Shown piece after piece: positions 12,686 to 57,290 of a DNA stretch of 64,000 bases (position 1 is the first letter of the stretch; each line of letters begins with the position of its first letter). The stretch is from the NCBI RefSeq assembly GCF_000526375.1, contig NZ_JAFY01000002.1, positions 372,001 to 436,000 of the forward strand, read 5' to 3'. The translations under genes were made by a program, and so were the position numbers. Source of the stretch: Aminiphilus circumscriptus DSM 16581. GTDB lineage: Bacteria > Synergistota > Synergistia > Synergistales > Aminiphilaceae. The notes beneath the pieces were generated by a model. That model made no database searches. It had not been told where the DNA came from and saw only the letters and a program-made list of their open reading frames with translations.

Positions 12686-13160
12686 AGACGGCGGTCCGCC
12701 AGGGCAATCAGGAGATCTTTCGAGAGCGCACCGCGAAGGCTCTCTTCCTCGACGGAGGACGGAGGCAATCCCGACTCTGAAGGACACACTGAGGGATTCG
12801 TTTCCCCGCGGAAAAGGAATGTGGCGCGTGCGGGCCAGCAGACCAACGTACGATATACGGAAGCCCGAAGTCCTCTTCCGGGAAAAAACAGAGGAAGCCC
12901 TGAATAAAGACCTTTCGCTTTCCCTTGACTCGGGTCGCATCAGGCTCTGCGAAGCGCCCTGCGGGGCTGACGCAGCCTTATTCAGAGATTTCCAGAATGA
13001 ATGCTTCGCCCCCGAAACGCCCCACCACATCCTCCGGCCCCAGATGCACCTCGAACAGCTCCACGAGCCCCCGAAGCACCGCGTCACCGGCGGGATGTCC
13101 GTAGGTTTCGTTAATCTTCTTAAAATGCTCCAGATCAAGAAAGGTCATGGGGCAAAACAA
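12640..13160 (-). pseudogene. decayed GGDEF-domain gene interrupted by a 100-bp repeat element
   Basis: The 5' part reads TFLDLEHFKKINETYGHPAG and continues to VVGRFGGEAFILEI, a clear GGDEF half-domain. It ends in a stop supplied by the inserted element (12893-12992). Beyond the element the GGDEF reading resumes in pieces: an LFPEEDFGL-like stretch, then SLSVSFRVGIASV in another frame, then IALADRRLYEAKRRGR in a third. These are the missing second half of the domain with at least two further frameshifts. No N-terminal sensor remains. The tail overlaps the 3' end of nikO on the opposite strand. It is non-functional on this reading. Confidence 0.75.
12893..12992 (+). repeat. 100-bp MITE-like element, copy 1 (inverse orientation)
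   Basis: One of six 100-bp copies in the window. The target duplication is CAGA on both sides (12889-12892 and 12993-12996). It has four substitutions from the consensus, two of which it shares with copy 4. It sits inside the GGDEF remnant and supplies its premature stop. Confidence 0.9.
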
Positions 13161-13235
13161 AAGAGCGCCCCTTCTTTCCTTACATGGGATATCCTCCGGA
13201 GAGCATGCTCCGTGAGTCTTTACGATACCGAAAAC

Positions 13236-13245
13236 TACCGATGTA
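13236..13245 (+). promoter_or_regulatory. cop-box-like palindrome upstream of copA
   Basis: TACCGATGTA matches the CopY-type operator pattern TACANNTGTA at all but one position. It lies about 115 bp before the copA start in an unusually AT-rich stretch (13200-13320) that also contains CTATATATTT, a possible -10 region. No CopY-like gene is in the window, so this is only a suggestion. Confidence 0.25.
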
Positions 13246-13360
13246 GGGTATCTGCTCTCTCTGATAGACTCTACGCTATATATTTCCTACTATTCTGGTA
13301 GAATTAGTCTATCTCTCTTCACGACAACGCTGCAAAAGCCATAACCAAGGAGGAATTTCC

Positions 13361-15856
13361 GTGACGGAGACGACGAAGAAGGTCACCCTCGACGTGGGAG
13401 GCATGCACTGCACCGCCTGCGCCGCTTCGGTGGAAAGGGCCTTGCGGAAACTCGACGGTGTGCGGGAGGCATCGGTGAACTTTCCCCTGCATCTCGCCGT
13501 TGTCGAGGCCGATGCGGGCCTCGATCCGACCCTGTTCGTCACAGCGGTGGAAAAACTCGGCTTTACCGCACTGGTGAAGGAGAATCCCCTCTCCGGAGGT
13601 GCACGGCGCCTGAGCTTTTCCGTGGAGGGGATGCACTGCGCCGCCTGCGCACGCACGCTGGAGCGGGAGCTGACCAAGGTGACGGGGGTCCGCGCCGCAT
13701 CGGTGAACTTTCCCCAGAAGCGGGCCTTCGTGGAAGCCGACCCGGAAGGGATCTCCGCCGGGGCGCTCGAAGAGGCGGCGGGCAAGGTCGGCTTTGCGCT
13801 GAAACCCCTGGCGAAATCCACCGAGGCGGAGGATCTGGCGGGCAAGGAACTCGCCGAGGCGAAACGTCGCATGATCTTTGCCTGGAGCCTGGGCATTCCC
13901 TCGGCGATCCTCATGATCCTCCACGAGATGGGGATCAAGATTCCGCCGGACCTCACCCAGCATCTCCTGCTGGAGCAGCTCCTGAGCGGAGCCATCATCT
14001 TCTGGGCGGGCTGGGACACCATCTCCCGGGCGTTCAAGCAGATCCTTCGCCTGCAGACGAGCATGGACACTCTCATCACCCTCGGCACGCTGGCTTCCTT
14101 CGCGTCGGGACTCCTGAAGATCGCCGGGCTGCCCGTGGTGAGCTACGCCATGGTGGGTGGCATGATCATGGCCTTCCACCTCACCGGGCGTTACCTGGAG
14201 ACGGGAGCGCGCACCCGGGCGACGAAGGAGATCGCCAAACTGCTCGAGATGGGCGCCAAACGCGCCACGGTGGAGCGGAACGGTTCCGTCGTCGAGGTGG
14301 ACGTGGAGGAACTCGTCCCCGGCGACGTGATGCGCGTCCGCCCCGGAGAGAAGATCCCCCAGGACGGCGAGATCGTGGAGGGAACGAGCAGCATCGACGA
14401 GTCCATGATCTCCGGCGAGCCGCTGCCGGTGGTCCGCAAGGCCGGAGAGGCCGTCACGGGGGCGACCATCAATCTCGACGGCTTCTTGCGCATCCGGGTC
14501 ACCCGCATCGGCGCGGAGTCCTTCCTCTCCCAGATCATCTCCCTCGTCCAGGAGGCCCAGGGGACGAAGGTGCCCATCCAGGCCTTCGCGGACCGCATCA
14601 CCTCGGTGTTCGTGCCCGTCGTCACCGTTCTGTCGGCGCTCTCCTTCGCACTGCTCTTCTTCTTCCCCAACGTGTTCGCACCCTTCATCGCCGCGGCCTC
14701 CCGGCTTCTTCCCTGGATTCCGCCGGACATGCCCGTCTTCTCCAGGGCACTCTCGGCGGCCATCGCCACGCTGGTCATCGCCTGCCCCTGCGCGCTCGGG
14801 CTCGCCACACCCACGGCGCTCATGGTGGGCACGGGCATGTCCGCCAAACGGGGCGTTCTCTTCCGGAACGGCGAAGCCGTGCAGACCATGAAGGCCGTGG
14901 ACGTGGTGCTCCTTGACAAGACCGGAACGGTCACCCTCGGGCGCCCCAAGGTCGAGCGCATTGCTCCTGCCCCGGGAATGACCGAGGCGGATCTCCTCCG
15001 TCTCGCCCTGGCGCTGGAGACTCCCTCGGAGCATCCCCTGAGCCGGGCCATCGTGGAACACGCCGCAACGGCGGGCATGACCGCCGAGCCGGTGGAGCGC
15101 TTTCAGGTGACACCCGGGCGAGGCGTGAGCGGCGTGGTGGACGGAAGGACGGTCTACGCGGGAAATCTCGCGTGGCTCTCCGAGACGAACTCCGACGCGT
15201 CCCCCGGAAAAAGCATTCTTTCCGACGAACTCACCCGGGTACTCGAAGAGGGCACCGCCGCCGCCGCCACACCGGTGTTGCTCTGGGACGAGGAGCGCGT
15301 GCTCGGCCTCTTCCTTCTCGCCGACGAGATCAAGCCCGAGAGCGTCGCCTCGGTGGAGCGCCTTCGGCACATGGGCAAGAAAGTGGTGCTCGTCACCGGA
15401 GACGTGCGGCGCTCCGCGGAACGCATCGGCGCCATGCTCGGCATGGACGAGATCGTGGCGGAAGTTCTCCCCCAGGACAAGATGAGCGTGGTGGAACGCT
15501 TCCAGGCCGCGGGACACACCGTGGCCATGGTGGGAGACGGCATCAACGACGCCCCGGCCCTCAAGAAGGCGAACGTCGGAATCGCCATGGGCACGGGAAC
15601 GGACATCGCCCGGGAGGCCGGGGACGTGGTGCTCGTCCGGGGCAATCTGGAATCCCTCGTGGAGGCCTTCCTCATCGCCGACGCCATGTTCCGGAAGATC
15701 CGGCAGAACCTCTTCTGGGCCTTCTTCTACAACGTGGTGGCCATCCCCCTGGCCTTCGTGGGACTTCTCCATCCCCTTCTCGCCGAGGCAGCCATGGCAC
15801 TGAGTTCCATCAACGTGGTGACCAACTCTCTGCGCCTCCGCAAGCTCCGGCTCTGA
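13361..15856 (+). CDS. copA: copper-translocating P1B-type ATPase
   Basis: 831 residues from GTG with AAGGAGG upstream. Two N-terminal HMA domains carry [12 protein letters not shown] and [12 protein letters not shown] metal sites. The P-type core is complete: SGEPLPV actuator loop, CPC in [24 protein letters not shown] phosphorylation site, SEHPLSRAI nucleotide-site HP, and [10 protein letters not shown] hinge. Eight membrane segments are expected. The CPC and C-terminal membrane motifs fit Cu(I) export (CopA). It is followed after 270 bp by a copper-handling fusion protein, supporting a copper-resistance unit. Confidence 0.95.
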
Positions 15857-16127
15857 TTCCGGACCGTGGACCGGGGGCGGAAAAACTCGGCGCGGCGCTG
15901 AAAAAACGCGTTGCGCTTCCCGGCGGGGAACGTAGAGACAAAACGCGTCAGACAGGGAATGCATGGTGACATGTGAGCAAGGCACGGAAAAAGAATGCGT
16001 CATGACCGCCGAGGATTTCTTTCCTTGATGGATGGCGAAATCCGATGGTCGATGCTGTTCGGGAGAAATCGCGGGCTTCCTTGGGGTAGCAAGAGGAGCC
16101 TGCGTTTGAGGAGGGATGGAGACGATC

Positions 16128-17960
16128 ATGGCAGGAAAAGACGAAAAACGAACAGAATCGAAAAGCCCGGAAGAGGCGACGCCTCCGAAGAAGGGCTCGG
16201 CAAGGGCACAAGAAACCCCGGATGCCGCAACGGAGGCGAAAACTCCAGCGCCTGCGCCGCGGAAGAACGAGCCGGAGCCCCAGGTGCGTCTCTTCGTCCG
16301 GGGCATGCACTGCCCCGCCTGCGAAGCCCTCGTGGCGGAACGGATCGGTGAACTGCCCGGTGTGCGGCATGTGCGCGCCTCCCTGGCGGAGGGAACGGTG
16401 ACGGTCACCCTCGCGAAGCCGGAGCACTCGGCGGCTTCCGGAACGCACGAAAACGGCGGGGCGGCGCCGCAGGATCCGCCGGAAACGAGAGCATCGCAGG
16501 CCCTCTCCCCGGAGAAACTCGGGGAACTCTTCGCCGACCAGGGGTATCTCTTCGCCGAAACCCCCTTTGACGACGCGGGGGGACGTCTCCGGGAGTTCGC
16601 CCTCGCCGGAGGTGCGGTCCTCCTCGCGGCGGCGTTCTTTCTTTTTCTGGAGCACAGCGGCATCCTTCATCTCGTCCTCGTGGACACGTCGTCGGCGCTT
16701 CCCGCCTTCGTCCTCTTCGGCCTGCTCGCGGGCATTTCGAGCTGTGCCGCTCTCGTGGGAGGGCTGGTGCTCTCCGTCTCCCGCTCCTGGGGGACCGACG
16801 GAAACGGGAAATCGTGTCTGTCCTTCAACCTCGGCCGCCTCGTCGCCTACGGCGCGGCGGGGGCACTTCTCGGATCGCTGGGAAGTGCCTTCCGGATCTC
16901 CGCTCCCGCCGCGGCGCTTCTGGTCTTCGCCGTCTCCTTCGTCATGGCGGCTCTGGGGCTCCAGATGCTCGGCGTTCCCGGCGCGGAGCGACTCCGCCTC
17001 CCCTTTTCGGGAGAGGGAACGTCCCGAAAGGGAAAGGGCACCCGGACACCCTTTCTCCTCGGCGCCTCCACGGTGTTCCTTCCCTGCGGCTTCTCCATCA
17101 CCGTCCAGGGCGTGGCGCTTTTGTCGGGCGACCCGTTCCGGGGAGCCCTGGTCATGCTCGCCTTCGCCCTCGGAACAGCGCCCTCCCTGCTGGCCATCGG
17201 CATCGCCGGAACACGCTTTCTGTCGCATCCGCGCTTCTCCCGACTCGCGGGGCGCATCGCGGGAGCGCTCGTCCTCATGGCGGCGCTCTACAACGTGAAC
17301 GCCCAGCTCAATGTCCTGAGCATGCCCTCCTTAAGCGATCTGCCCTTCTTCCGCACCGCACCGGAGCAGGCCTCCGCCGTGCCCCTCGCTCCGGAGGCTC
17401 CGGCGACATCCCAGGCAACTCCCGCATCGCGTTTCCCGAACGACGCGGGCATCACGGGAAGTACCTGCTGCACCGTGGAGCCCGAAGCTCCTGCGCCATC
17501 TCCCCCGAGCGGACGCTTTCCGAGCGATGCGGGGTTCGGCGGCGCCTGCTGTTCCGTCGCGGAACCCGGCGCAGCCTCCCAGGACAGTTCATGCTGCACC
17601 GCCGGTGCGGCGCCGGACGGAAGCCCCATCACCGGTCAGCCCGCACCGACGGGTGCGCCACTTCGTTCCGAGACGCCACCACCCCAGGCGGCACAGCGCA
17701 TCATCATGGCCGCCGGAGCCCGGAGTTACACGCCGAACGTCTTCCAGGTGAAGGCGGGCGTCCCCGTGCGCTGGGAGATCACGGACGGAGGATTCAGCGG
17801 CTGCACCAACGCCGTCATGGCCAGGGGGCTCTTCAACGGAACGCTCCCCCTCGTCCGGGGAGGCACGGCGGTGGCGGAGTTCACCCCGGAAAAGCCGGGG
17901 CGCTACAAGTTCAGTTGTTGGATGGGCATGGTCTCGGGAATCATCGAGGTTCTTCCATAA
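16128..17960 (+). CDS. HMA / DsbD-like membrane / cupredoxin fusion protein with CC-repeat linker
   Basis: About 610 residues. A charged N-terminal tail leads to an HMA domain (RGMHCPACEALVAERIGELP, ~65-105). A six-helix membrane domain of the TauE/SafE or DsbD_2 type follows (~155-400, with NLGRLVAYGAAGALLG and FLPCGFSITVQG). A Pro/Ala-rich linker then carries three CC pairs in near-repeats (STCC, GACC, SSCC, with RFPNDAG / RFPSDAG spacers). A C-terminal cupredoxin-like domain with SGCTNAVM and FSCWMGMVSG closes the chain. It probably takes up, relays or exports copper across the membrane. GGAG 6 nt before this ATG supports the start; another lies 4 codons upstream. Confidence 0.85.
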   Translation: MAGKDEKRTESKSPEEATPPKKGSARAQETPDAATEAKTPAPAPRKNEPEPQVRLFVRGMHCPACEALVAERIGELPGVRHVRASLAEGTVTVTLAKPEHSAASGTHENGGAAPQDPPETRASQALSPEKLGELFADQGYLFAETPFDDAGGRLREFALAGGAVLLAAAFFLFLEHSGILHLVLVDTSSALPAFVLFGLLAGISSCAALVGGLVLSVSRSWGTDGNGKSCLSFNLGRLVAYGAAGALLGSLGSAFRISAPAAALLVFAVSFVMAALGLQMLGVPGAERLRLPFSGEGTSRKGKGTRTPFLLGASTVFLPCGFSITVQGVALLSGDPFRGALVMLAFALGTAPSLLAIGIAGTRFLSHPRFSRLAGRIAGALVLMAALYNVNAQLNVLSMPSLSDLPFFRTAPEQASAVPLAPEAPATSQATPASRFPNDAGITGSTCCTVEPEAPAPSPPSGRFPSDAGFGGACCSVAEPGAASQDSSCCTAGAAPDGSPITGQPAPTGAPLRSETPPPQAAQRIIMAAGARSYTPNVFQVKAGVPVRWEITDGGFSGCTNAVMARGLFNGTLPLVRGGTAVAEFTPEKPGRYKFSCWMGMVSGIIEVLP

Positions 17961-17971
17961 AAAAAAGGAAA

Positions 17972-18071
17972 GGAATCTCTGAATAAGGCTGCGTCAACCC
18001 CGCAGGGTGCCTCGCAGAGCCTGATGCGACCCGAGTCAAGGGAAAGCGAAAGGCCTTTATTCAGAGCTTCC
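17972..18071 (+). repeat. 100-bp MITE-like element, copy 2
   Basis: Exactly 100 bp, flanked by GAAA at 17968-17971 and 18072-18075. It starts GGAATCTCTGAATAA and ends with the near-complement. It has two substitutions from the consensus. It lies 11 bp after the stop of the HMA fusion gene. Confidence 0.9.
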
Positions 18072-18195
18072 GAAACTCTTCCCGAAAACCGCACAATGCG
18101 GCGAGAAACGGAACGGACAAAACGGCGGGGCGGAAAAGCAGAGCAGAGATGAAGCGACATTCCTCCCGGGAGAGCAAACCCTTTCCGGATCGACA

Positions 18196-18235
18196 GAGAA
18201 CGCCGGAGCCCGAAAAAACGGACTCCGGCGTTCTC
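18196..18235 (-). terminator. hairpin terminator of the hut genes
   Basis: GAGAACGCCGGAG pairs perfectly with CTCCGGCGTTCTC (13 bp); the loop holds a further CCG/CGG pair around A6. It lies about 50 bp past the hutG stop on the minus strand. Confidence 0.6.
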
Positions 18236-18286
18236 GTGACTTCTGTGGTCTCCCGCCGGCGCACCGGGTTCTCCGGCACACCGCCC

Positions 18287-19273
18287 TCACCGCCGTCCTC
18301 TCTCGCTGAACCCCTTGCAGAACCAGAAGAGAATCCCCGCACAGAGGGCGGCTGTTCTGCCGTTCTCGTCCAAGGGAGGACACATCTCCACCAGGTCCAG
18401 ATACCGGATGCGATCGGTCCGTCCAGCGAGATAGGCGATCTTCTCCAGCTCCGGAGCCTTGAAGCCTCTTGGATTGCTCGCGGAGGCGCCGGGGGCTTCC
18501 TGGCTTCGGACGGCATCAATGTCGATGGAGAGAGCCACCACCCGGGTCCCGTCCCCAGCGATGCGGCTTGCCTCGAGAAAATACTCCATCGGGCGGTTTC
18601 CGACGGACGTGAGGGTCATGACGGTGGCACCCTGTTCCCTGACCCACCGATAGTAGTGGGGTGAGTTGAAGGGTTCCTGTATGCCGAACTCGACGAAGGA
18701 ACGCCCCAAAAGCGCCCGTCGCGGCAACCCCTCCAGCGCCCTCCGGAAAGGGGTTCCGCTGGTGATGCCCCGGCTGAGGTCGCGCACATCCAGATGACTG
18801 TCCACATTGATGAGCCCCAGTTCTCCCTCGCCGAGCGCCAGCGCTTCAACCATCCCCACTAGGCCGGGAAAGGTCAGGTCGTGTCCGCCGCCGAGGACGA
18901 TGGGGAAGATGTCCCGCTCCAGAATCCGCCTGATCGTCTGGGTGAGGCGGTCGTGACTTTCCTCGAGGGTCTTGCCGGGAGGCACGTCGCCAAGGTCGGC
19001 CATGGGAAGTCCGTAGAAATCGCGACCGAAACCTGGCGTCAGTCTATAGAAGGACCGCCGGATGGCCTCGGGTCCTCCGGCGGCTCCTTTCTTTCCCCCG
19101 TTGGCGGCGATACCCCTGTCCTCTGGAAAGCCCACGAGGGCGATGCGGATCTCGCCGGGCATCTTCTCGAGTCCGCCGTCGACCGGCCGAACGAGGTCGC
19201 CGAGCCTGGGATCGTTGGGATCGTTTCGTGTGAAAAACAACTCTGGTTTCGGAGGATGCAGATCGAAGGACAT
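18287..19273 (-). CDS. hutG: formimidoylglutamase-type ureohydrolase
   Basis: 328 residues, arginase/agmatinase superfamily. The binuclear manganese site is intact: GGGHDLTFPG, NVDSHLDVRD and ALSIDIDAVRS supply the His and Asp ligands. It lies directly downstream of urocanate hydratase, so the likely reaction is N-formimidoyl-L-glutamate to glutamate plus formamide, step four of histidine breakdown. An agmatinase or guanidinobutyrase role is less likely given the neighbour. AAGGAG before MSFDLHPPK sets the start over an upstream TTG. hutH and hutI are not in the window. Confidence 0.88.
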   Translation of the reverse strand: MSFDLHPPKPELFFTRNDPNDPRLGDLVRPVDGGLEKMPGEIRIALVGFPEDRGIAANGGKKGAAGGPEAIRRSFYRLTPGFGRDFYGLPMADLGDVPPGKTLEESHDRLTQTIRRILERDIFPIVLGGGHDLTFPGLVGMVEALALGEGELGLINVDSHLDVRDLSRGITSGTPFRRALEGLPRRALLGRSFVEFGIQEPFNSPHYYRWVREQGATVMTLTSVGNRPMEYFLEASRIAGDGTRVVALSIDIDAVRSQEAPGASASNPRGFKAPELEKIAYLAGRTDRIRYLDLVEMCPPLDENGRTAALCAGILFWFCKGFSERGRR

Positions 19274-19358
19274 TTTTCGCGACTCCTTCAAACAGGTGCC
19301 AGCCTGCGGATACTCCGGGTGCCGACACCTGTCCGTGTCGAGTGCAGCTTGCCGGATG

Positions 19359-21392
19359 TTACTTCTTTTCCGAAGATCCGGCCACGGTGCGGCGCACCAG
19401 ATCGTCGGCCACCCTGAAGGGCAACGTGATGTGGTAGCTTCCCTCGTACTTGGTGTTCACCTCGCGACTCACCTCTTCCGCATGCTCGCAGCGGGCCCAG
19501 GCCCTGCGGGCGACACCGCCCAACACGTCCCACATCATGGCGGAGCGCAGGATCCGGTCGGTTCGTTCCGAGCCGTCAAGGAGCATGCCGAAGCCTCCGT
19601 TGATGGCCTTTCCAATGCCCACACCACCCCCATTGTGGAGCGCGCAGAGCGTCATACCCCTGGCGGCGTTGCCGGCGAAGCACTGCACGGCCATATCGGC
19701 GCAGATGTTGCTGCCATCCTTGATGTTGGAGGTCTCGCGGTAGGGAGAGTCCGTGCCGGAGACGTCGTGATGGTCCCGCCCCATCATGACGGGACCGATT
19801 TCTCCGTTGCGGACCATCTCGTTGAACTTCAGGGCAATCCTCGTCCGCCCCTCCGCATCCTGGTAGAGAATACGGGCCTGGGTTCCCACGACGAGACGGT
19901 TCTTCTCGGCATCGCGGATCCACACCCAGTTGTCGTAGTCCTGGGCTCGCCGGTCCGGATCGATGCACTCCATGGCGGCACGGTCGGTCTTGCGGAGATC
20001 CTCGGGGCTTCCACTCAGGCAGACCCAGCGGAAGGGGCCGTAGCCGTAGTCAAAGAGAACCGGCCCCATAATGTCCTCCACGTAGGAGGGCCAGATGAAT
20101 CCCTCGTAGGTGTTCTCGCCGTTCCGGCAGATCTCCTTCACCCCCGCGTCGAAGACAGCCCGCATGAAGGAGTTGCCGTAGTCGAAGAAATAGGTTCCCC
20201 GACCGGTGAGCACCTTGATAAGTTCATAATGTCGGCGAAGTGTCTCGTCCACCCGACGTCGAAACTCCTTGGGGTCTTTGTGGAGCATCTCGGTGCGCTC
20301 CTCGAAAGAAAGCCCAACAGGGCAGTAGCCGCCGTCGTAGGGGGCGTGGCAGGAGGTCTGGTCGGAGAGAAGCGGAATCGCTATGGAATGGTTCACTGCG
20401 TATTGAAGAAGGTCCACAATGTTTCCGTGATAGGCGATGGAGAGAGGCGCACGTTTGGCCAAGGCTTCGTCGGCCAGGGCAAAGGCATCCTCGCAGCTCT
20501 CGGCGACCCGGCTGACCCACCCCTGGCTGCGGCGGGTCTCAATGCGGGAGGCGTCCACTTCGGCCACGATGCCCACGCCTCCGGCGATCTCGATGGCCTT
20601 GGGCTGGGCGCCGCTCATGCCACCCAAGCCGGAGGAGACAAAGAGAATTCCCGCGAGGTTTTCCTTGGGACCGACGCCGAACCGCTGCCGTGCAGCGTTG
20701 AGCAGCGTGTTGTAGGTTCCGTGCACGATGCCCTGAGGGCCAATGTACATCCAGCCACCGGCGGTCATCTGGCCGTAGTTGCTCACGCCGAGCTGCATGG
20801 CCCGGTGCCATTCAGCCTGATTGTCGAAGAGCCCGACCAGAAGTCCGTTGGTGAGGATCACCCGGGGCGCCTCGGGGTGGGATTTGAAGAGGCCGAGGGG
20901 ATGTCCGCTCTCCAGAACAAGGGTTGTGTCCTCGGTGAGCTGTTCCAGATATTTTTTGATGAGACGGTACTGAAGCCAGTTCTGGCAGACCTGCCCAGTC
21001 TCGCCGTAGGTGACCAGCTCGTAGGGATAGAGGGCGACCTCGAAATCCAGGTTGTTATCGATCATGACCTGGAACGCCTTGCCCGCCAGGCATTTCCCCT
21101 CGTACTCGTCGACGGGTTTGCCACGAAGCCGGCCAGCCGGTCGGTAGCGGTAGGCATAAATGCGTCCTCTGGTGCGGAGTTCCTCGAGAAACTCGGGGGC
21201 CAGTGTCTCGTGCAACTCCTCCGGAACGTAGCGGAGGGCATTGCGGAGAGCAAGCTCCGTCTCCTTTTGGTTCAGTGTCCAGCCCCGGTCCGGCGCCCGC
21301 CGGATTCCGGGAAGAAATTCGGGGTCGCTGGGCAGCTCGGCGTCGAGCTTGATGCTCATGGCTCGCTCGTTCAATTCGTTCACCTCATGCAT
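19359..21392 (-). CDS. hutU: urocanate hydratase
   Basis: 677 residues, in the long form of the family. It converts urocanate to imidazolonepropionate with tightly bound NAD+. Visible family blocks are TAGGWMYIGPQGIVHGT, GLGGMSGAQPKA (NAD-binding), QTSCHAPYDGGYCPVGLSF, and MMGRDHHDVSG near the end. AAGGAGG 8 nt before MHEVNE fixes the start. It is transcribed with hutG 85 bp downstream, and an IclR regulator lies just upstream on the same strand. Confidence 0.95.
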   Translation of the reverse strand: MHEVNELNERAMSIKLDAELPSDPEFLPGIRRAPDRGWTLNQKETELALRNALRYVPEELHETLAPEFLEELRTRGRIYAYRYRPAGRLRGKPVDEYEGKCLAGKAFQVMIDNNLDFEVALYPYELVTYGETGQVCQNWLQYRLIKKYLEQLTEDTTLVLESGHPLGLFKSHPEAPRVILTNGLLVGLFDNQAEWHRAMQLGVSNYGQMTAGGWMYIGPQGIVHGTYNTLLNAARQRFGVGPKENLAGILFVSSGLGGMSGAQPKAIEIAGGVGIVAEVDASRIETRRSQGWVSRVAESCEDAFALADEALAKRAPLSIAYHGNIVDLLQYAVNHSIAIPLLSDQTSCHAPYDGGYCPVGLSFEERTEMLHKDPKEFRRRVDETLRRHYELIKVLTGRGTYFFDYGNSFMRAVFDAGVKEICRNGENTYEGFIWPSYVEDIMGPVLFDYGYGPFRWVCLSGSPEDLRKTDRAAMECIDPDRRAQDYDNWVWIRDAEKNRLVVGTQARILYQDAEGRTRIALKFNEMVRNGEIGPVMMGRDHHDVSGTDSPYRETSNIKDGSNICADMAVQCFAGNAARGMTLCALHNGGGVGIGKAINGGFGMLLDGSERTDRILRSAMMWDVLGGVARRAWARCEHAEEVSREVNTKYEGSYHITLPFRVADDLVRRTVAGSSEKK

Positions 21393-21606
21393 CCTGAAGA
21401 CCTCCTTCGGTACGGAATTGGGGCATCTTTTCAAAAAACACGACCACTATCGCCCCGTCGTTTTCTGTTCCGCGACAGCATGTTTCCCTTTTTTCAGCAA
21501 CCTCTCCGACAACCGCAACGGCTTCCGGAGGGGCGTTCCGGAGACGCCCACACACGGAAGCACACACGCGCCCCCTCCGGATGGCTTCCAGCCTCCTCGC
21601 TTCGCT

Positions 21607-22371: not shown

Positions 22372-22394
22372 TTCTCCCGGAACCCCTCTCAAAA

Positions 22395-22413: not shown

Positions 22414-22426
22414 ATTTTTGTTTTTC

Positions 22427-26707: not shown

Positions 26708-26713
26708 GGGCAA

Positions 26714-29177: not shown

Positions 29178-29277
29178 GGAAGCTCTGAATAAAGGCCTTT
29201 CGCTTTCCCTTGACTCGGGTCGCATCAGGCTCTGCGAGGCGCCCTGCGGGGCTGACGCAGCCTTATTCAGAGATTCC
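29178..29277 (+). repeat. 100-bp MITE-like element, copy 3 (inverse orientation)
   Basis: Exactly 100 bp between TTTC (29174-29177) and TTTC (29278-29281). It is base-for-base identical to copy 6 at 57191, 28 kb away, and to the consensus. It lies between the IS3 remnant and the oxidoreductase pseudogene. Confidence 0.92.
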
Positions 29278-34364: not shown

Positions 34365-34464
34365 GGAATCTCTGAATAAGGCTACGTCAGCCCCGCAGGG
34401 CGCCTCGCAGAGCTTGATGCGACCCGAGTCAAGGGAAAGCGAAAGGTCTTTATTCAGGGCTTCC
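34365..34464 (+). repeat. 100-bp MITE-like element, copy 4
   Basis: Exactly 100 bp between TTAG (34361-34364) and TTGG (34465-34468), the only copy with an imperfect duplication. It has four substitutions, two shared with copy 1. It ends 26 bp before the larE start, so it occupies the expected larE promoter region. Confidence 0.9.
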
Positions 34465-38989: not shown

Positions 38990-39089
38990 GGAATCTCTGA
39001 ATAAGACTACGTCAGTCCCGCAGGGCGCCTCGCAGAGCCTGACGCGACCCGAGTCAAGGAAAAGCGAAAGGCCTTTCTTCAGAGCTTCC
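38990..39089 (+). repeat. 100-bp MITE-like element, copy 5
   Basis: Exactly 100 bp between TTTG (38986-38989) and TTTG (39090-39093). It is the most diverged copy, with six substitutions. One of them (TGATG to TGACG) makes an internal CGTCAG/CTGACG pairing perfect. It lies between the HD-GYP and response-regulator genes. Confidence 0.9.
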
Positions 39090-39270
39090 TTTGGGAAACC
39101 CTGATCAAGTAGGAATCGCCCTCTCTCGATTTTCGATTGCATCGCGTTTTTCCGAGATCGGCACGGCATTTTTCAGAGGCTCCTTTGATTTTACACTGTT
39201 TGAAAAAAAGCGTACAACTCCGGCGGCATGATTCGGCATGATTTCGAGGAACATCCGGAAAGGAAACGAA

Positions 39271-46375: not shown

Positions 46376-46393
46376 CGCGGAGGAAAACGCTCC

Positions 46394-48325: not shown

Positions 48326-48339
48326 GGTCATGTACCAGC

Positions 48340-48373
48340 CACTCTCCGGCGGATCCCTCTTCGGCGGAGAGTG
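48340..48373 (+). terminator. intercistronic hairpin between dctP and dctQ
   Basis: CACTCTCCG and CGGAGAGTG form a 9-bp stem with a 16-nt loop, followed by CTTGTTTTCTC. It probably causes partial termination after the binding-protein gene. Confidence 0.6.
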
Positions 48374-48501
48374 CTTGTTTTCTCGAAAGAGACGCCGATG
48401 AAGGAAAAGCGCAGAAGGAGCCGCTCCTCTTTCCGGGAACACGCCCCAGACGGAGCGGCACTCCGCCTGCTTTCGAAACTCCACGAAAGGACCGTTTCTC
48501 C

Positions 48502-48972
48502 ATGATCCGCACGCTCTGGACGCATTTCGAGGAAATCGCGGGCTCCATCATTCTCGCCGTCATGACCACCGTGGCCTTTCTCAACGTGGTCACGCGGTAT
48601 TTCATCAAATACTCCTTCTCCTTCACCGAGGAGATCGAGGTGAATCTCTTCGTCTGGCTCGTGCTCCTCGGCACCTCTCTGGCCTTCCGCAAGGGAGCGC
48701 ACCTGAGCATGAACTTCTTCTACGACCGCTTTCCCCCCGCGGTCCGAAAGATCTTCTTTCTCGCCACCACCGGAATCTGCGTGGCGTTTTTCGCCGTTTT
48801 GGCCCATCTGGGGCGGCTCGAGGTGCTGGACGAACTGGCCCTGTCGGTGACCACCGAATCCCTGGGCATTCCCGTGGTGGTCTACACTGCGGCGGTGCCC
48901 GTCCTGTCGCTCCTCGTCATCGTGCGCATTCTCCAGCAGAGCGCCGCCGCCCTCCGGGCAGGCGACATCTAG
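48502..48972 (+). CDS. dctQ: TRAP transporter small permease (DctQ family)
   Basis: 156 residues with four membrane helices. FLNVVTRYFIKYSFSFTEE and EVNLFVWLVLLGTSLAFRKG are the DctQ signatures. AAAGGA lies 10 nt before the ATG. It pairs with DctM 15 bp downstream to form the sodium-coupled importer. Confidence 0.92.
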   Translation: MIRTLWTHFEEIAGSIILAVMTTVAFLNVVTRYFIKYSFSFTEEIEVNLFVWLVLLGTSLAFRKGAHLSMNFFYDRFPPAVRKIFFLATTGICVAFFAVLAHLGRLEVLDELALSVTTESLGIPVVVYTAAVPVLSLLVIVRILQQSAAALRAGDI

Positions 48973-48987
48973 GAAGAGGTGCATCCC

Positions 48988-50295
48988 ATGGACAAACTTC
49001 TCGCCGATCCGGCCTTCTGGATGCTCCTTCTCTTCCTCGCGCCGCTCCTCCTGCGCGTTCCCGTGGCGGTGAGCCTGGGCGGCGCGGCCCTCGCGGTGTG
49101 CGTGCACTGGAACCTGGGGTATCAGATGGTGTCCTACAACTTCTTCGCCGGGATCGCCAAGTTTCCCCTCCTGGCCATTCCCTTCTTCATCCTCGCCGGG
49201 GTCATCATGGAGAAGGCGGGCATCGCGGAACGCATCATCGACCTCATCGACGAGCTCGTGGGCTCCGCCACGGGAGGACTCGCCCTCGCCACGGTGGGGG
49301 TGGCCACCTTCTGGGGCGCCGTGAGCGGGTCCGGCCCCGCCACAGTGGCGGCCCTGGGGCTCATCCTCATTCCCGGCATGGCCGCGGCGGGATACGACAA
49401 ACCCTTCGCCACGGCGGTGGTCTCCGTGGCCTCGGGCCTGGCCATCGTCATTCCTCCGAGCATCGCCTTCATCGTCTACGGAGACATCATGCAGCAGTCC
49501 GTGGGGGCGCTCTTCGCGGCGGGCGTGCTGCCGGGCATCGTGGTGGCCCTCTTCCTCATGGGAGCGGTCTATCTCATCTCGCGGCGCCGAAACTACCGGG
49601 GCAAACCCAGGACCTCCACCGCCGCCCTGTGGCGGGCCTTCGTCCGTTCCCTCTGGGGGCTCTTCACTCCGGTCATCATCCTCGGCGGGATCTACGGGGG
49701 GATCTTCACCCCCACCGAGGCCGCCTCGGTGGCCGTCTTCTACGGGCTTTTCGTGGGGGTCTTCATCTATCGGACCATCACGTTCCGGACGCTCTACGAG
49801 ATCCTGAGCGCCACGGTGCTCTCCACCGCGGTGGTCATGCTCGTGGTGACCTGCGCGGGACTCTTCTCCTGGGTGGGTTCCGCCGTGGGACTCATCGACA
49901 AGGCGGCGAATCTTCTGCTGGGGGTTTCCTCCTCGCCGCTGGTGGTTCTCCTGATGATCAACCTCATTCTTCTCTTCGCGGGAATGCTTCTGGACGCCAT
50001 CTCCATCTTCTACGTCTTTCTTCCCATCCTCATGCCCATCATCGCCCACTTCGGCTGGGATCCCGTGTGGTTCGGCGTGGTCATGACCATCAACCTCGCC
50101 ATCGGACAGGTGACACCCCCCGTGGCGGTGAACCTCTACGTGGGAGCCAACATCAGCGGCCTCACCATGGAGGAACTCACGCCTCCGGCCCTTCCGCTCA
50201 TCGCGGCCTCCGCCCTGGCCCTGGCGGTGGTGTCCCTGATCCCCTCCTTGAGCACCTGGCTTCCCTCAGTACTGGGGCTCCATGGGTCGCCCTGA
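48988..50295 (+). CDS. dctM: TRAP transporter large permease (DctM family)
   Basis: 435 residues, about 12 membrane helices. GVATFWGAVSGSGPATVAALG, IPPSIAFIVYGDIM, YGGIFTPTEAASVAVFYG and GQVTPPVAVNLYVGANISG are family hallmarks, including the sodium- and substrate-site loops. The ATG at 48988 is preferred over the GTG three codons earlier, which sits on top of the ribosome site. It is the last gene of the dctPQM operon and ends at a bidirectional terminator. Confidence 0.94.
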   Translation: MDKLLADPAFWMLLLFLAPLLLRVPVAVSLGGAALAVCVHWNLGYQMVSYNFFAGIAKFPLLAIPFFILAGVIMEKAGIAERIIDLIDELVGSATGGLALATVGVATFWGAVSGSGPATVAALGLILIPGMAAAGYDKPFATAVVSVASGLAIVIPPSIAFIVYGDIMQQSVGALFAAGVLPGIVVALFLMGAVYLISRRRNYRGKPRTSTAALWRAFVRSLWGLFTPVIILGGIYGGIFTPTEAASVAVFYGLFVGVFIYRTITFRTLYEILSATVLSTAVVMLVVTCAGLFSWVGSAVGLIDKAANLLLGVSSSPLVVLLMINLILLFAGMLLDAISIFYVFLPILMPIIAHFGWDPVWFGVVMTINLAIGQVTPPVAVNLYVGANISGLTMEELTPPALPLIAASALALAVVSLIPSLSTWLPSVLGLHGSP

Positions 50296-50327
50296 TCCGT
50301 CCCGCAACAGCCGGACGCTCGAACGCA

Positions 50328-50366
50328 ACGTGGGGAGGAGCGCGCTCGTGCGCGTTCCTCCCCACG
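50328..50366. terminator. strong bidirectional terminator
   Basis: ACGTGGGGAGGA pairs with TCCTCCCCACGT and an inner CGCG/CGCG pairing continues the stem to a small loop. It separates convergent dctM and the TrpR-like gene. Confidence 0.75.
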
Positions 50367-50426
50367 TCTTTCCGCAAAAAGAACAGAAGATCCTGCGGGG
50401 ATTCTTTCGGAAAGTCTTCTCCGCGT

Positions 50427-50747
50427 CTACGCCTGCTCGACCTCCCGGGCGTCTTCCTTTCGGGCTTTCAGCCTTTCCAGCACGCGGAGCAGGCCATCCG
50501 TCCCGTAGTCGAGAGCCTTTTTGGTCCTGCTGATGGTCACCGAGCTGGCGCCGGACATCCGGGAGATCTCCCCGTAGTTGAGCCCCTCGTGAAGGAGGCG
50601 GGCCACCTCGAGCCGCTGGGCCAACGCCTTCAACTCGCCGATGGTGCCCACATCCTCGAGAAAGCGGTACATTTCGTCCTGCGTCTTGAGGCAGAGAATC
50701 GCCTCGCAGAGACGATCCGTGGAGCTGTCCTTCCATTTCACCGACAT
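50427..50747 (-). CDS. TrpR-like (YerC/YecD family) DNA-binding protein
   Basis: 106 residues with AAAGGAGGAAAA before the ATG. CLKTQDEMYRFLEDVGTIGE and ALAQRLEVARLLHEGLNYGE are the YerC/YecD signature, and the helix-turn-helix is ISRMSGASSVTISRTKKAL. It is related to TrpR, but the ligand and targets of this family are not established. A single gene; the region upstream to 51203 holds no convincing gene. Confidence 0.9.
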   Translation of the reverse strand: MSVKWKDSSTDRLCEAILCLKTQDEMYRFLEDVGTIGELKALAQRLEVARLLHEGLNYGEISRMSGASSVTISRTKKALDYGTDGLLRVLERLKARKEDAREVEQA

Positions 50748-51203
50748 GCCTTTTCCTCCTTTTATACCCACTGCCATTACATTCCGGAGTACCACACCCG
50801 TTGCGGCATCCTCCAGGCAGTTGCGTTCATCCATCCGACAAAACCATCTTCCGTCCGACCTCCGCGCATCGCGGAGCACGACCGGAAAAACCGCCCCGGC
50901 TTCCCGTCGGAGCATCGGCGGGCCGGATTCCGACACTTGTGCAGTCCTCCATCGAGCATGGGGCCCTCCTCCGCGTTCCCTCAAGAGGTTTCCTCTTTTC
51001 AGGGGCACACTTCCTCTCGGGCTGACTTTCCGGAAGAAAATCTCCCCTTTCCCCACTCCATCAGGATACCATGAAACGGAAGAAAAGCACAGATGACGTT
51101 GACGTTCTTTTGATAACGAAAAAATGCCGCCATGCCCGTCAAGGAATTCTTCGGGCAACAAGAAAACCTGATAGGGAATCCTGTTCAAAACAGGAAAAGC
51201 GTC

Positions 51204-53285
51204 TCAGCGTCCCGAAGGCAGGGCCTCGAGGGGAGCAGCGCCGGCATTCCTTTCCCCGCAACGGCGGATCACGTCTTCGAGCTTGCGCGTCAGCGCCTCG
51301 CTGATGGTACGCGCCTTCCTGTGCAGCTCCTCCAGCTGTTCCGTCTTTCCGCTCCGTCCGGCGTCCCGCACGGCATGCCCCAGATGGTGCAGTTCGTCGT
51401 GAAGCCGGCGAATCTCTCCCCATTCCGCGGCCACTGCGGGAGGCGTGTCCGTCACGGCGAGAAAGATGCCGAAGCGGCAGCGCGTCGGATCGGTCTCGAG
51501 GTTCCAGAGCCCGCCCCGGATGTAGTCATCGAGGCGCTGCATCCACGCCGCGTGGCCGTCGATGGCGATGCGGCAGATCTCTGTAAACTCCTCGCAGGTG
51601 GTGATGGAGAAATGCGACAGAACATCGAGGACGGAACGCCCCGTCTCGGCGCCGTCGGCGATCTGTTTCCGGAGCAGGACCACCGAATCGCCGAGACGGA
51701 GAACGCTCTTCTCCACGCTCCCGATGACGGCACCGAGCTCCAGTGCGAACTGGGAAACCGACTCCGCTCCCGAGGCCATTTCCTGGGAGGAGGCACTCAG
51801 TTCCTCCGCTCCGGCGGCAACGCTCTGGGAGGCCTCGTTCACACCGGCCATGCGGCGGAGAATGGCGGAGATGGAGTGCACCACGCCGGAAATCTGCGCA
51901 CCGACCCGCTCCATTTCCCGGGCCATGCCCTGAATATCCCCGGACGTTCCGGCAACACCTTTCATGAGCGTGGACAGGTTTTCGCCAATCCGTGCCGCCG
52001 CCTTCCTGCTCTCTTCCGCAAGGGTGCGTACTTCCTCCGCGACGACGGCGAAGCCCCGCCCCGCGTCACCAGCCCTGGCGGCTTCGATGGCCGCGTTGAG
52101 AGCGAGGAGGTTTGTCTGTTCCGCAATACCCGTGATGGCCTGCACCACCGAATTGATGACCTTTGCCTGTTCCGCAAGGGAGACAGCGCGTTCCGAGACG
52201 CCCGAGACGTTCTCCCGAATGCTGGTGATGGTGGCGATGGTGGCGCCCAGGGCCGCCTCGCCCCCCTCCGCATCCCGGGCCACCTCGGAAACGGCGCCGT
52301 TCAGTTCCTCGGCGATACGCGCCAGGGACTGGGCCGTGGAGGCGATCTCCTCGGAGCTGGCATACTGCTGCTGTACCGCCCCGGTGATTTTCTGCACCGC
52401 TCCGGCGCCCACGACCGTACGCTCCCTCACCTCGCCGAATTCCTCGCTGAAGGCATCGAGGGAGCTGTTGACGCTGTAGAAGATGGCGAGGAACTGCTGC
52501 ACCCCCTTGGAGAAACGCCAGAAGGAACTGCGGAGAAACTCCACGAAGACGTTGAAGGCGCCTCCGAGGCGGCCAATTTCGTCGTTGGTCCGCACGGGAA
52601 GGCGTCGGGTGAGATCGCCTCCCGAACTGGCGAAGCTCTCCATGAGTCGGAGCATGCTTCGCGTTGGCGCCAAAATAGCCCGCAGATAAAAGAACACGCA
52701 GAGCAGGGCCACCGCGACGGCGATGACGAGCGCCAGCTCCTGGGACCGTTCGAGAAGAACGACCTTCGTCTCTGCCTCCGCCTGGAAAACCGACACGGCA
52801 CCGTCCATGGCCCTCAAAATTTCCGGTTCCGCCCTGCGGATAGCCTCAAGGGTGTCTTTTCCGGAACCGGACGAAGCCGCATTCCGAAGGGAACCGAGAA
52901 TGTCCCTGAAAGGGTTCCAGAGGGAACGCACCGCTCCCAGCGCCGCCGCCGCCTTCGGCGAGGGAACGGGAAGCGCAACCAGGAGCGTGCCCTTCAGATC
53001 CAGCGGCGCGTCCCCTCCCTCGGCGAGTGCCTTCAGGGTCCTGTCGAAGGCGGTGGCGGACCGGTCCAGCTCTGCGAGAACCGACGCATCTGAGGTGAGC
53101 AGATACAGGTAGGCATCCTTGGCCATCTTCTGAGAGAGCATGCGCTGACGTCCCGCCAGATTGATCACGACGCCGTCCCGTGCCTGCCCGGAGGTGACGA
53201 AAAACGTCACCGACAGGGACGCGACGAAAAGCACCACGAGGATTCCCAGTGGAAGGAGGAGCTTTGCCAGCAGACTTCTTTTCAT
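51204..53285 (-). CDS. methyl-accepting chemotaxis protein with PilJ-type sensor and CZB domain
   Basis: 693 residues. The start [20 protein letters not shown] gives the first membrane helix, with GAAAGGG upstream. The periplasmic part opens with [20 protein letters not shown], the NarX/PilJ-type P-box helix. The second helix and HAMP follow (~195-270), then a signalling domain with [20 protein letters not shown]. The C-terminal CZB zinc-binding domain is complete: [24 protein letters not shown], and [15 protein letters not shown] domains sense zinc or, through an oxidisable Cys-Zn site, reactive chlorine species. The ligand of the sensor domain is unknown. Confidence 0.93.
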
Positions 53286-53535
53286 GAATACCGCACCCTT
53301 TCTCTCGTCCGTCTTTGTATGGTGGTTTCGCGAAAAGAACAACGCAACATAGAATCATTCCATTTGAGATGATACGAGGTTTCGTCACACCTGACAATGT
53401 TCGTTCTGTCGTACTTTTCTCTTCCTCTCCGCCTCCGCTTTTCCGTGATGGCATCGCCCGCATTCCTTCCGCGATCACCACGCCCCGGCCCGGAGGAGAA
53501 CTCCTTTTCCCGGCGACATTGTTCGGACGCACCTC

Positions 53536-53564
53536 TTGCTCTTTTTTTGTACCTCTTTCATAAT
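53536..53564 (+). promoter_or_regulatory. promoter of the HisKA_2 kinase gene
   Basis: TTGCTC (53536-53541), a 17-nt spacer and CATAAT (53559-53564), about 115 bp before the kinase start. The rest of the 398-bp divergent gap (53286-53683) shows no gene. Confidence 0.5.
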
Positions 53565-53683
53565 GGGGCAACGCGCTGTCCACCCATCGACACCGCCGAC
53601 GCGACCGCAGCCGGACCGGATTCCGCCACGCCTTCGGGAGCACCGGGGAAAATCGGAAACGGCCGGAGAGAATGGAGAAAACC

Positions 53684-55975
53684 ATGAGCACAGAACAAGC
53701 CCGTTCCCTGCCACGGACCGTGTTTCCCCTCGCAGGCCTTGTTGTTCTTGCCTTCCTGGGAAACGCCTTCGGCCTGAATCTGCTTCCCGGTGTCGATTTT
53801 CTCTTCGGCAGCATCTTCGTTCTTCTCGCGGCGTGGCGCTTCGGCCCTCTTGCCGGTGCTCTCGCGGCACTTGTCTCCTCGGCCTACACCGTTGTGCTCT
53901 GGGGACATCCCTGGGCTATCATCAACTACATGACGGAAGCTCTCGCGGTGGGGTTCGGAAGACGGTACCTGAACAACCTCTTCCTGCTGGATTTCCTCTA
54001 TTGGATCACCTTCGGCAACATGCAGCTTCTCCTGCTCTGGAAGGGACTCTACGGCATGGACTGGGAAGGGGTGTTCTTCCTGGTTCTCAAATGCGACGTG
54101 AACAGCCTCTTCAACGCCCTCACGGCTTTCCTCGTCGTCACGATTCTTCCGTTCCGGACTTTTCCGGGGCCGAAACATGCTCCCGACCGCCCGCCTCTGG
54201 AGCACCTTCTTCTCTGCGGCATGCTCTTCCTTGCCATCGTGCCCCTTCTCGCCGTCATGCTTCACGGCACGCTTCACCTCGATGACGACATCGAGTCCGC
54301 CACCGAGCGCAGGCGCTCCGAGGCCCTGCGGCTGGTGCAGCGACGGATGGCGCAATGGAAGACTCCTTTGGTCCAGGCACTCCCCTTCATCGCCCACGTG
54401 ACTTCGGAGGGACACCTTTCCGCACAGGAAAATCCCTTCGTCGGCACAAGCATCCTCGAGATCTACCTCGTCAGCCGGAACGGCACGACGGCCAGATCCT
54501 TCCTCGACGACACCGAAGTTCCCCCGGAGAGGCTTCTTCCCTCGCCCGTACTGGAGCACCTCCAGCGTTCCCGGACCGGAGCCGCCCCGGAGGATGTCTC
54601 CTTTCTCCTCTGCCCCCTGGGAAAAGAAACCTACCGGGTCTTCGTGGTGGCGGAAACGGGAAACTCTTTCGTCGTCCTCGCCACCGACCCGACGCCCGTC
54701 TTCGACGATCTGGCGGAACAGCTCCGAACGCTCGGCGTCCAGGCGCTTCTCGTGGACGACAACACCGGTGCCGTGCGCCCTCTGTCGCTCTTTCCCGAAC
54801 ACCTGCTCTCCCGCCTCGACGAGTTCCGCGACAGTGCCGGGCCCTTTCCCCTGCGGATCAAGCCCCGTTCGGACAGAAGAGGGAGCATCCCGCTGGTGTA
54901 CCTCTGGATGCGTACCATCCTCGTGGACCGCGTGGTCTACGAGGAAATGCCCGGCTGGACCATGCTCGTCGCCTCCCCCCTGGACGCTTCCGGCGGCGCT
55001 CTCTTCGGAAACTACATCCGTACCATGTTCCTCATGATCTCCATGGCCTTCGCCTCGATCATCGTCTCCTTTGTCCTGAGCCGACTTCTCGTCCGTCCGG
55101 TTCTCAGGCTGGCAACACTCACGGAGAAGCTCTCTCCCGAACATTCCGTCGAGGACTGGCCCAGAGGTATCTCCGCCGAGACGGAGCACCTCGCCACAAA
55201 CGTGCGCCGTATGCACACCTCCCTCGCGACACAGTTCGCGCAACTTCGGGAACTGAACCAAAACCTGGACGGCGCCGTGCGAGAGCGCACTGCGGAGCTG
55301 GAAGAGACGAACCGCGCGCTGGAGGAGGAGATCGCCGAGCGGACACGGGTGGAGGAACTGCTGCGGATCTCCCTGCAGGACAAGGAAGTGCTGCTCCGGG
55401 AAGTGCACCATCGGGTGAAGAACAACCTTCAGGTCATCTCCAGCCTTCTGAGCCTCCAGGCCCAGCGCGCCGCACTCCCCGAACTGGCGGAGCAGCTTCG
55501 GAAGGGGCAGAGTCGGGTCCGGACCATGGCACTGGTGCACGACCTCCTTTACCGCACGTCGGAGTTCTCCACGGTGGACATGAAAATCTATCTGGAGCAG
55601 CTCGTGCGTTATTTCGGAGAAGTGTCCCTTCCCCGCGATGCGGAGGTGACCATCGTCACCTCCGTGGACGCCACGGCCCTTCCCGTGGACAAGGCAATCC
55701 CCTGCGGTCTCGTGGTGGGAGAACTCCTCATGAACGCATGCAAACACGGATTTTCCGACACGAAAAAAGGCACCATCACCGTTTCTCTCCGGAGTGCGAA
55801 GGCGGAGGCGACGCTTTCCGTCTCGAACGACGGCGCACCGCTGCGGGAAGAGTACGCCACCGGCGCCACGGGACTCGGCATGACCATCGTGGAGGCCCTG
55901 GTGCGGCAGCTCGACGGCACACTCCGGGTCCGCACGGCAAACCCCGTGGTCTTCGAGATCCGCTTCCCCCTGTAA
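53684..55975 (+). CDS. membrane sensor histidine kinase, HisKA_2 family
   Basis: About 763 residues. GGAG 6 nt before MSTEQ supports this ATG; another lies four codons upstream. Five hydrophobic segments (~15-190) form a membrane sensor of MASE1-like look. An extracytoplasmic Cache-like region (~200-430), another membrane helix ([18 protein letters not shown]), HAMP and a coiled coil follow. The kinase has [20 protein letters not shown] (phospho-acceptor His in HHRVKNN), NACKHGF and [13 protein letters not shown]. No response regulator gene is adjacent, so its partner lies elsewhere. Confidence 0.88.
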
Positions 55976-55982
55976 CGGCGCG

Positions 55983-57155
55983 TCACGTCGGCCGCCGGGG
56001 GGCCAGAAGACGGCGCGTCACCACGGGAGAGATCATGGTGGTGACGATGCTCAGAACCACGATGGCCACGAAGAACGCCTCGTTGAGCAGGCCCAGCTCT
56101 CGTCCCACCGCCGCGGCGGCGAGGGTGGCCGAGAGCTGAGGGATGGTGGCGAACCCCATGCCGAGGCTCTCCCGGAAGGGCATGCCGAGCAGCGTCCCCG
56201 CGAGAGCCCCGCTTCCCGCCTTGGTGCAGATCAGCCCCAGGACCACCGTGATGGTGATGAAAAGGTTCTCTCTCGCCTGGAACAGCACTCCCAGGTTGGT
56301 CTCCATGCCCATGACGAGAAAGAAGATGGGAATGAAGAAGGAATAGCCCAGGGTGGTGAGCTTCTCTTCGCAATCCTTGCAGGCGTGGACATCGAAGGTC
56401 TCCGACAGGGCCACCCCGGCGAGAAAGGCTCCCACGATGGCGTGTACGTGCAACACCTCCGCCAGAAACGTGACGAGAAGGAGAACGAAGAGGATAAAGC
56501 GTACCTCCGTCTCGAAATGGACCAGCGTGCCGTGGTCGAGACGGAAGAAGCGGTGTCCGATCTTGGGCACGAGATAGAGCACCGCCGCGAGAAAAAGCAC
56601 CGCGGAGAGAATGAAGAGCCAGATGCCCCCGGCCCCTCCCGCCTGGATGCGCACCACCACCGAGAGGACGAGGAGGGAGAGGATGTCCATGATCACCACG
56701 GCGCTGATGACCAGGTCGCCCATGCGTTGAACTCTCTCGCCGGAACCCCGTATCTCCCGGAAGACGGGAATGATGATTCCCACCGAGGAGGAGGTGAAGA
56801 TGGACCCGAGGAGCACCGCCTCGAGCCACCCCAGCCCGAAGAAGCGCCCCACGAGCAGCCCCCCGAGAAAGGGAATCCCCCCGTTGCAGCACGTGAGCAG
56901 GACCGTGCGGTTCCGGTTTCCCCGGAAGACCTGGGGGTCCATCTCCATGCCCGCCAGGAACATGAGAAAGACGAGCCCGAGCTGGGCGATGGCCTTGAGT
57001 GCCGAATTGGGCTCGATAAGCCCGAATCCGTAGGGGCCGACGAGAATGCCCGCGGCGATCTCCGCCGTGACGTTCGGAATGCCCAGGCGGTTGAGAAGCC
57101 GCGGAAAGAGCAGCAGCACAAACATGACCACCGTGAAGAGCAGGAGCGTATTCAT
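55983..57155 (-). CDS. CPA2-family cation:proton antiporter (Kef/NapA type)
   Basis: 390 residues, about 12 membrane helices. NRLGIPNVTAEIAAGILVGP is the family entry block; FLMFLAGMEMD, TSSSVGIIIPVF and VISAVVIMDILSLLVLSVVV carry the ion-path residues. It exchanges Na+ or K+ for protons. There is no C-terminal TrkA/RCK domain, so it resembles NapA-type rather than full Kef proteins. GGGAGGTGA lies upstream. Convergent with the kinase gene at a 7-bp gap; repeat copy 6 sits 35 bp upstream of its start. Confidence 0.9.
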   Translation of the reverse strand: MNTLLLFTVVMFVLLLFPRLLNRLGIPNVTAEIAAGILVGPYGFGLIEPNSALKAIAQLGLVFLMFLAGMEMDPQVFRGNRNRTVLLTCCNGGIPFLGGLLVGRFFGLGWLEAVLLGSIFTSSSVGIIIPVFREIRGSGERVQRMGDLVISAVVIMDILSLLVLSVVVRIQAGGAGGIWLFILSAVLFLAAVLYLVPKIGHRFFRLDHGTLVHFETEVRFILFVLLLVTFLAEVLHVHAIVGAFLAGVALSETFDVHACKDCEEKLTTLGYSFFIPIFFLVMGMETNLGVLFQARENLFITITVVLGLICTKAGSGALAGTLLGMPFRESLGMGFATIPQLSATLAAAAVGRELGLLNEAFFVAIVVLSIVTTMISPVVTRRLLAPRRPT

Positions 57156-57190
57156 TTCGGAGGATCACCTCCCTTTCCGTTCTTTCCTAA

Positions 57191-57290
57191 GGAAGCTCTG
57201 AATAAAGGCCTTTCGCTTTCCCTTGACTCGGGTCGCATCAGGCTCTGCGAGGCGCCCTGCGGGGCTGACGCAGCCTTATTCAGAGATTCC
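57191..57290 (+). repeat. 100-bp MITE-like element, copy 6 (inverse orientation)
   Basis: Exactly 100 bp between CTAA (57187-57190) and CTAA (57291-57294). It is identical to copy 3 and to the consensus. It lies in the promoter region of the minus-strand antiporter gene. Confidence 0.92.

Follow-up and report, generated by a model that had tools for sequence, protein, structure and literature searches.

The analyzed window is a 64-kb stretch, positions 372001-436000 of contig C2, from the host genome (3.22 Mb in 7 contigs, designated as G000). It contains six copies of a short repeat, designated as MITE family 1, and beside one of them a copy of another repeat, designated as MITE family 2. 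The copies are listed below with their target-site duplications (TSDs) and, where available, the state of the orthologous site in a congeneric genome, G001.

12893-12992, + strand: MITE family 1; TSD CAGA at 12889-12892 and 12993-12996; site empty in G001
17972-18071, - strand: MITE family 1; TSD GAAA (read on the + strand)
29178-29277, + strand: MITE family 1; TSD TTTC; identical to the copy at 57191; site empty in G001
34365-34464, - strand: MITE family 1; TSD imperfect, TTAG/TTGG (3/4)
38990-39089, - strand: MITE family 1; TSD TTTG, one TSD copy common with the adjacent family 2 element; site empty in G001
39094-39183, + strand: MITE family 2, ~90 bp; adjoins the copy at 38990; absent from G001 here
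57191-57290, + strand: MITE family 1; TSD CTAA; identical to the copy at 29178

The six family 1 repeats had been located by the first-pass annotation. The printed copies with their flanks, as well as a repeat search, agree with it on the coordinates, on the length of exactly 100 bp each, and on the presence of both orientations. The flanking tetranucleotides are also as it had given them, five duplications being perfect and one matching at 3/4. Its description of the element as exact holds for the length; the copies at 29178 and 57191 are the only identical pair, and the rest are ~90-98% alike. The lack of coding potential was borne out, and what had been called open in several frames corresponds to 2/6 frames without stops.

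The ends of the window copies are GGAAGCTCTGAATAA and GGAATCTCTGAATAA, with two copies starting GGAAGCC... instead of GGAAGCTCTGAATAA. They constitute imperfect terminal inverted repeats (TIRs) of ~15 bp, GGAATCTCTGAATAA and GGAAGCYCTGAATAA when read inward, with 1 mismatch. Family 1 thus has the structure of a MITE: it is short (100 bp, where less than 500 bp is expected), it lacks a transposase, and its TIRs are within the range of about 4-30 bp. It also shows target-site duplications and empty orthologous sites, and its ends are common to an autonomous IS of the same genome, as described below. The parent transposase had been reported absent from the window, and PF01609 and transposase searches of the own genome gave no match there.

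The window also contains a 117-nt inverted repeat pair (7846-7962 and 52011-52127), which is 80% complementary and lacks MITE ends. Since stretches like the 52-kb arm are found repeatedly, in many contigs of G001, the pair is probably a shared protein domain.

Copy number, target sites and genomic context of family 1

A very high genomic copy number had been anticipated from the window, and at least 126 copies of family 1 are indeed present in the 3.22-Mb genome. A 20-bp core pattern was found at 61 + 65 = 126 places of the own genome, while its reversed control was found at 0 + 0. With a profile derived from the six window copies, 126 copies were likewise detected, in the stretches retrieved around copies; the two counts coincide by chance, and either is a minimum. 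A TIR pattern gave 121 + 124 = 245 genomic matches versus 1 + 0 for its reversed control, and thus family 1 is not a chance pattern.

Both ends were scorable in 122 copies, and 83 of these are 100 bp long, the remainder showing small indels. Copies with intact ends span 88-112 bp. Length variation had been named in the first-pass annotation as an observation that would speak against a mobile element; it is present in minor form, as a few variants of 88-112 bp that carry small indels, but the reading stands because the 4-bp duplications and the empty sites hold. A perfect 4-bp duplication flanks 77/122 copies, and 20 more show a 3/4 match, while random re-pairing of the flanks yielded 3.2 perfect duplications on average and 11 at most. 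With alternative widths, duplications were seen in 9 (3 bp) and 3 (5 bp) of the same 122 copies. The targets are AT-rich, with T at position 2 in 57/77 and A at position 3 in 46/77 perfect duplications; strict YTAR accounts for just 18/77. The median divergence from the consensus is ~4 positions per 100 and identical pairs are few, which indicates that the amplification was in large part not a very recent event.

Termini such as GGAAGCCCTGAGGAAGCTCTGAAGAAA, partly duplicated at one end only, were observed at C5:277913, C5:502784, C2:158824, and C1:109601. They possibly arose when an element inserted into the CTGA at the end of another one and sequence was then lost.

Gene calls came from a crude, home-made simple dicodon model and not from standard gene-finding software. 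By these calls, 118/126 copies are entirely intergenic or at the border of a stretch, 6 extend over a gene end, and 2 are inside a predicted gene, versus 61% of matched target tetramers. We infer that this intergenic bias is due to purifying selection. Tandem, divergent, and convergent gaps occur around the copies in background proportions, which gives no hint that promoters or terminators are favoured. At C5:502784, where a family 1 copy lies beside an IS copy, element-encoded residues replace the C-terminal end of a transporter-like ORF, which we take to be of the TAXI type from reading its sequence, without a family search.

A resident IS5-family element and a second MITE family

Following the proposal of the first-pass annotation, an IS was sought whose ends and 4-bp duplications match those of family 1, and an intact 1236-bp IS5-family IS was found outside the window. 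Four copies (C2:849k, C5:502k, C7:426k, and C7:435k) are 100% identical, one further copy is at 97.7%, and several are decayed (roughly 10% or more divergence). The four identical IS copies contrast with the family 1 copies, most of which are diverged. In clear cases the IS is flanked by the 4-bp duplications AAAG, TTAA, and TTAA. Its product is an intact 320-aa DDE transposase, which scores 364.6 bits against NF033581 (transpos_IS5_4; cut-off 140, E 3e-109) and is also over the cut-offs of PF01609 and PF05598. The IS5-type DDE transposase, the GG-starting TIRs, and the 4-bp duplication of the YTAR type are those of the IS5 family.

The ends of the 1236-bp IS are GGAATCTCTGAAAAA and GGAAACCCTGAACAA (GGAATCTCTGAAAAAC and GGAAACCCTGAACAAG when read inward). 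GGAATCTCTGAAAAA agrees with one MITE end at 14/15 positions, and GGAAACCCTGAACAA agrees with the other at 12-13/15. An asymmetry is also common to the MITE and the IS: in both, position 5 is T at one end and a purine at the opposite end. No similarity between the MITE interior and the IS was seen beyond the terminal ~15 bp, and therefore the MITE may have an origin other than simple deletion from the present IS.

Relatives of the IS in other Synergistota (~70% protein identity) have the ends GGAACCTCTGAAAAA, and relatives in Pseudomonas (~52% protein identity) have GGAAGGTCTGAAAAA or close variants. In both, GGAANNTCTGAA ends are accompanied by 4-bp CTAA, TTAA, CTAG, or CTAT duplications. The relatives include Synergistaceae bacterium LM3-B12.1, Synergistota bacterium L-13, and Thermovirgaceae bacterium, which assigns the host to Synergistota.

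Other candidates for the parent were rejected. A 2.15-kb IS encoding a 615-aa DDE transposase, present in five copies ~99% alike (L045-L049: C7:65k, C5:532k, C5:625k, C2:1295k, and C5:52k), has unrelated ends (CCCGACTTCGCC). Distant TIR ends in pairs of 1.4-3 kb (C5:268k, C5:479k, and C1:111k), considered as the borders of a full-length IS, proved to be neighbouring MITEs.

De novo repeats in the stretches around family 1 revealed family 2, a MITE of about 90-110 bp with the structure GGAAACCCTGATCAAG...CATTTTTCAGAGGCTCC. Its ends, GGAAACCCTGATCAAG and GGAGCCTCTGAAAAA, are related to those of family 1. Besides the window copy, it was found at C2:597745, C7:406750, C1:110918, and C5:150871. Counts of family 2 and of the other repeats apply to the stretches around family 1 (13.5% of the genome) and are biased towards family 1 neighbourhoods. 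Another interspersed repeat, the third, reaches ~200 bp in length (GTTGTGTGCGTCAAGTTGTGCAAAAAGG...); it was noticed at loci L051, L079, L102, L105, L022, L029, and L090, and at C7:731736 it adjoins a MITE copy. An 86-bp repeat (CTCCCCTGCCGCCTATGAGAAACAATTTTTC...) occurs at L030:1858-1943 and, close by, at 2129-2214, as well as at L034:12065, L063:226, and L089:2026. In addition, a segment of 1.4 kb is 99.9% identical between L020:2512-3950 and L024:3064-4501, and a MITE copy starts each. The spurious ORFs in this segment suggest a putative rRNA operon edge.

From the shared ends, we infer that the transposase of the 1236-bp IS is the mover of family 1. The reading that family 1 consists of MITEs mobilised in trans by the DDE transposase of this resident IS is assigned a probability of roughly 0.93. 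Another helper is unlikely, yet it is the most serious alternative: a different IS5-type transposase, lost or unsampled and with ends exactly GGAAGCTCTGAATAA/GGAATCTCTGAATAA, would have founded and amplified the family, and the resident IS would be a cousin that rarely or never moves it. The agreement of only 12-14/15 between the MITE ends and the resident IS is in line with such a helper, as are the second MITE family and the decayed IS copies (~10% or more), which speak for a long history with several related elements. On the other hand, all examined IS5-type transposase matches with TIR-like ends belong to one IS group, and the mismatch-free TIR ends among the first 100 places listed are all within MITE copies, so that a full-length IS with ends exactly like those of the MITE was not seen. 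This alternative would change the helper and not the identity of family 1 as a MITE.

Empty sites, folding and stacked insertions

G001, an 81% complete draft, was the only same-genus genome found, and its identity is ~90-98% over most aligned parts of the window; for the window overall it is put at 93-96%. A comparison with empty sites in relatives had been suggested, and G001 lacks the insertion at three of the six sites, with one target copy at each of the three. At the 12893 site, both flanks align to G001 contig C62 and overlap there by 4 bases, which correspond to the duplicated target (a single CAGA), and the predicted empty sequence aligns across the junction unbroken. The 29178 site shows the same pattern on contig C20. 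At the 38990 site, C20 has a single TTTG, and neither a family 1 nor a family 2 copy is present. As for the remaining sites, 17972 is outside the G001 contigs found, the flank of 34365 is diverged, and the segment around 57191 is missing from G001. The empty sites show insertion directly.

At least 7 family 1 copies are present in the draft assembly of G001. A filled site is common to both species, at C38:40733 in G001 and C2:753939 in the host, with the same flanks, and the tandem site C1:28320/28423 has a counterpart on G001 contig C52. Since both empty and filled orthologous sites exist, part of the amplification predates the species split and part of it came later.

The first-pass annotation had also proposed that the whole unit could fold. 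The - strand is predicted to form a long imperfect hairpin of -46.7 kcal/mol (z = -4.1), which accords with the presence of the TIRs and of inner inverted repeats. This strong single-strand folding, along with the intergenic location, would suit a structural or regulatory RNA (REP- or ERIC-like elements, RNase III sites, or terminators) selected for its fold and not mobile. Such a function is nevertheless very improbable as the explanation of family 1, for the 4-bp duplications and the empty sites show insertion. Among 54 distinct copies, the covariation was 0.082 versus 0.080 for shuffled alignments, and pairs changed on both sides numbered 3 versus 2.1 expected. The pairs thus covary no more than in the shuffles, indicating a fold that is inherited and not visibly maintained. 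Rfam gave no match for family 1, terminator-like or promoter-like sites were not found in the one copy scanned, and the gap types are at background, as noted above.

Segmental duplication accounts for a few copies, C5:390011/390155 being in a 144-bp tandem duplication and C5:61065/481013 in a 1.4-kb repeat of 99.9% identity, but for the family as a whole it is refuted by the three sites empty in G001, and the unrelated flanks, own target duplications, and exact ends of the six window copies also speak against it.

In several places family 2 abuts the edge of family 1. At 38990-39187 in the window, the order is TTTG-[family 1]-TTTG-[family 2]-TTTG, versus the single TTTG in G001. Pairs of family 1 copies with one common duplication were found at C5:479457/479562 (CTAG) and C2:1270260/1270364 (TTAA). 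Head-to-tail MITEs with a single 4-bp target or few bases between them are also present at C1:28320/28423 and C1:109401/109493/109601. The simplest reading of these stacks is successive insertion into the regenerated target. It is conceivable, if somewhat doubtful, that target re-use is built into the IS5-type system, the regenerated 4-bp target being preferred and different MITE families stacking there.

Under mobilisation by the resident IS, the IS5-family transposase would bind the ends common to IS and MITE and excise or copy the 100-bp element. Insertion would take place at AT-rich 4-bp targets with a preferred T-A core, resembling YTAR, and repair of a 4-bp staggered cut would leave the 4-bp direct repeat. 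The regenerated target could be used again, and elements would then stack head to tail with one duplication in common. Some of the amplification would have taken place before the sister species diverged and some afterwards. The near absence of copies within genes would be due to selection against them, and the remaining copies would drift.

Distribution and comparison with known elements

The exact 31-bp core of family 1 had no match in a genome collection, from which the host and near genomes were possibly left out, and the 20-bp core had none in a viral collection. A phylum-wide search gave matches in 5/188 genomes, three of them weak matches of 23-40 bp. Based on these searches, family 1 looks restricted to the genus. 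Four other Synergistota genomes with IS relatives were searched for analogous MITEs, and a single 89-bp element was found in one of them (G189:C41:29067-29155, L271; ends GGAACCTCTGAATAA and GGAAGCTCTGATTAA). No description of MITEs in Synergistota turned up in a literature search.

With family 1, a burst of MITEs to high copy number is on record for Synergistota, and an intact candidate for the helper IS is present in the same genome. Insertions dated relatively by empty and filled sites in two close species, and a co-resident second MITE family, are available, making this a natural system for asking what limits and drives the amplification of bacterial MITEs. For annotation, the overlap of family 1 with gene ends explains spurious ORFs and protein tails.

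The Correia, ERIC, and Chunjie elements are similar to family 1 in being short, foldable, intergenic, and high in copy number, while their ends, sizes, and duplication lengths differ from those of family 1. More than 120 copies of Correia and 30-711 copies of ERIC are given in a review of bacterial MITEs (PMC10969869). IS5-family ISs with a 4-bp YTAR-like duplication (NF033581) are represented here by the resident 1236-bp IS, a member by its transposase profile, which has the same end motif and duplication length as family 1; but family 1 has no transposase, and no interior similarity to this IS was seen.

The closest described analogue of family 1 is MITEPsy1 from P. syringae pv. phaseolicola, a non-coding element of 100 nt with the end GGAAGGTCTGAAAAAGCC and a 4-nt duplication of CTAG or YTAA (PMC3189936). 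Its transposition was captured in a trap plasmid, with 4-nt duplications, and its presumed helper is ISPsy2 of the IS5 family (PMC3189936). The two elements are alike in the 100-nt length, the GGAA..TCTGAA end motif, the 4-nt duplication, and the presumed IS5-family helper; a comparison by eye with the published ends places the likeness in sequence in the end motif, homology beyond it not being shown. They differ in that transposition of MITEPsy1 was demonstrated, whereas the mobility of family 1 is read from genome sequence, and in copy number, with 6 copies of MITEPsy1 in its host (PMC3189936) versus at least 126 of family 1. As MITEPsy1 matches it in design and even in length, family 1 is a new family of a known kind, and what is unusual in it is the copy number and the setting, not the mechanism.
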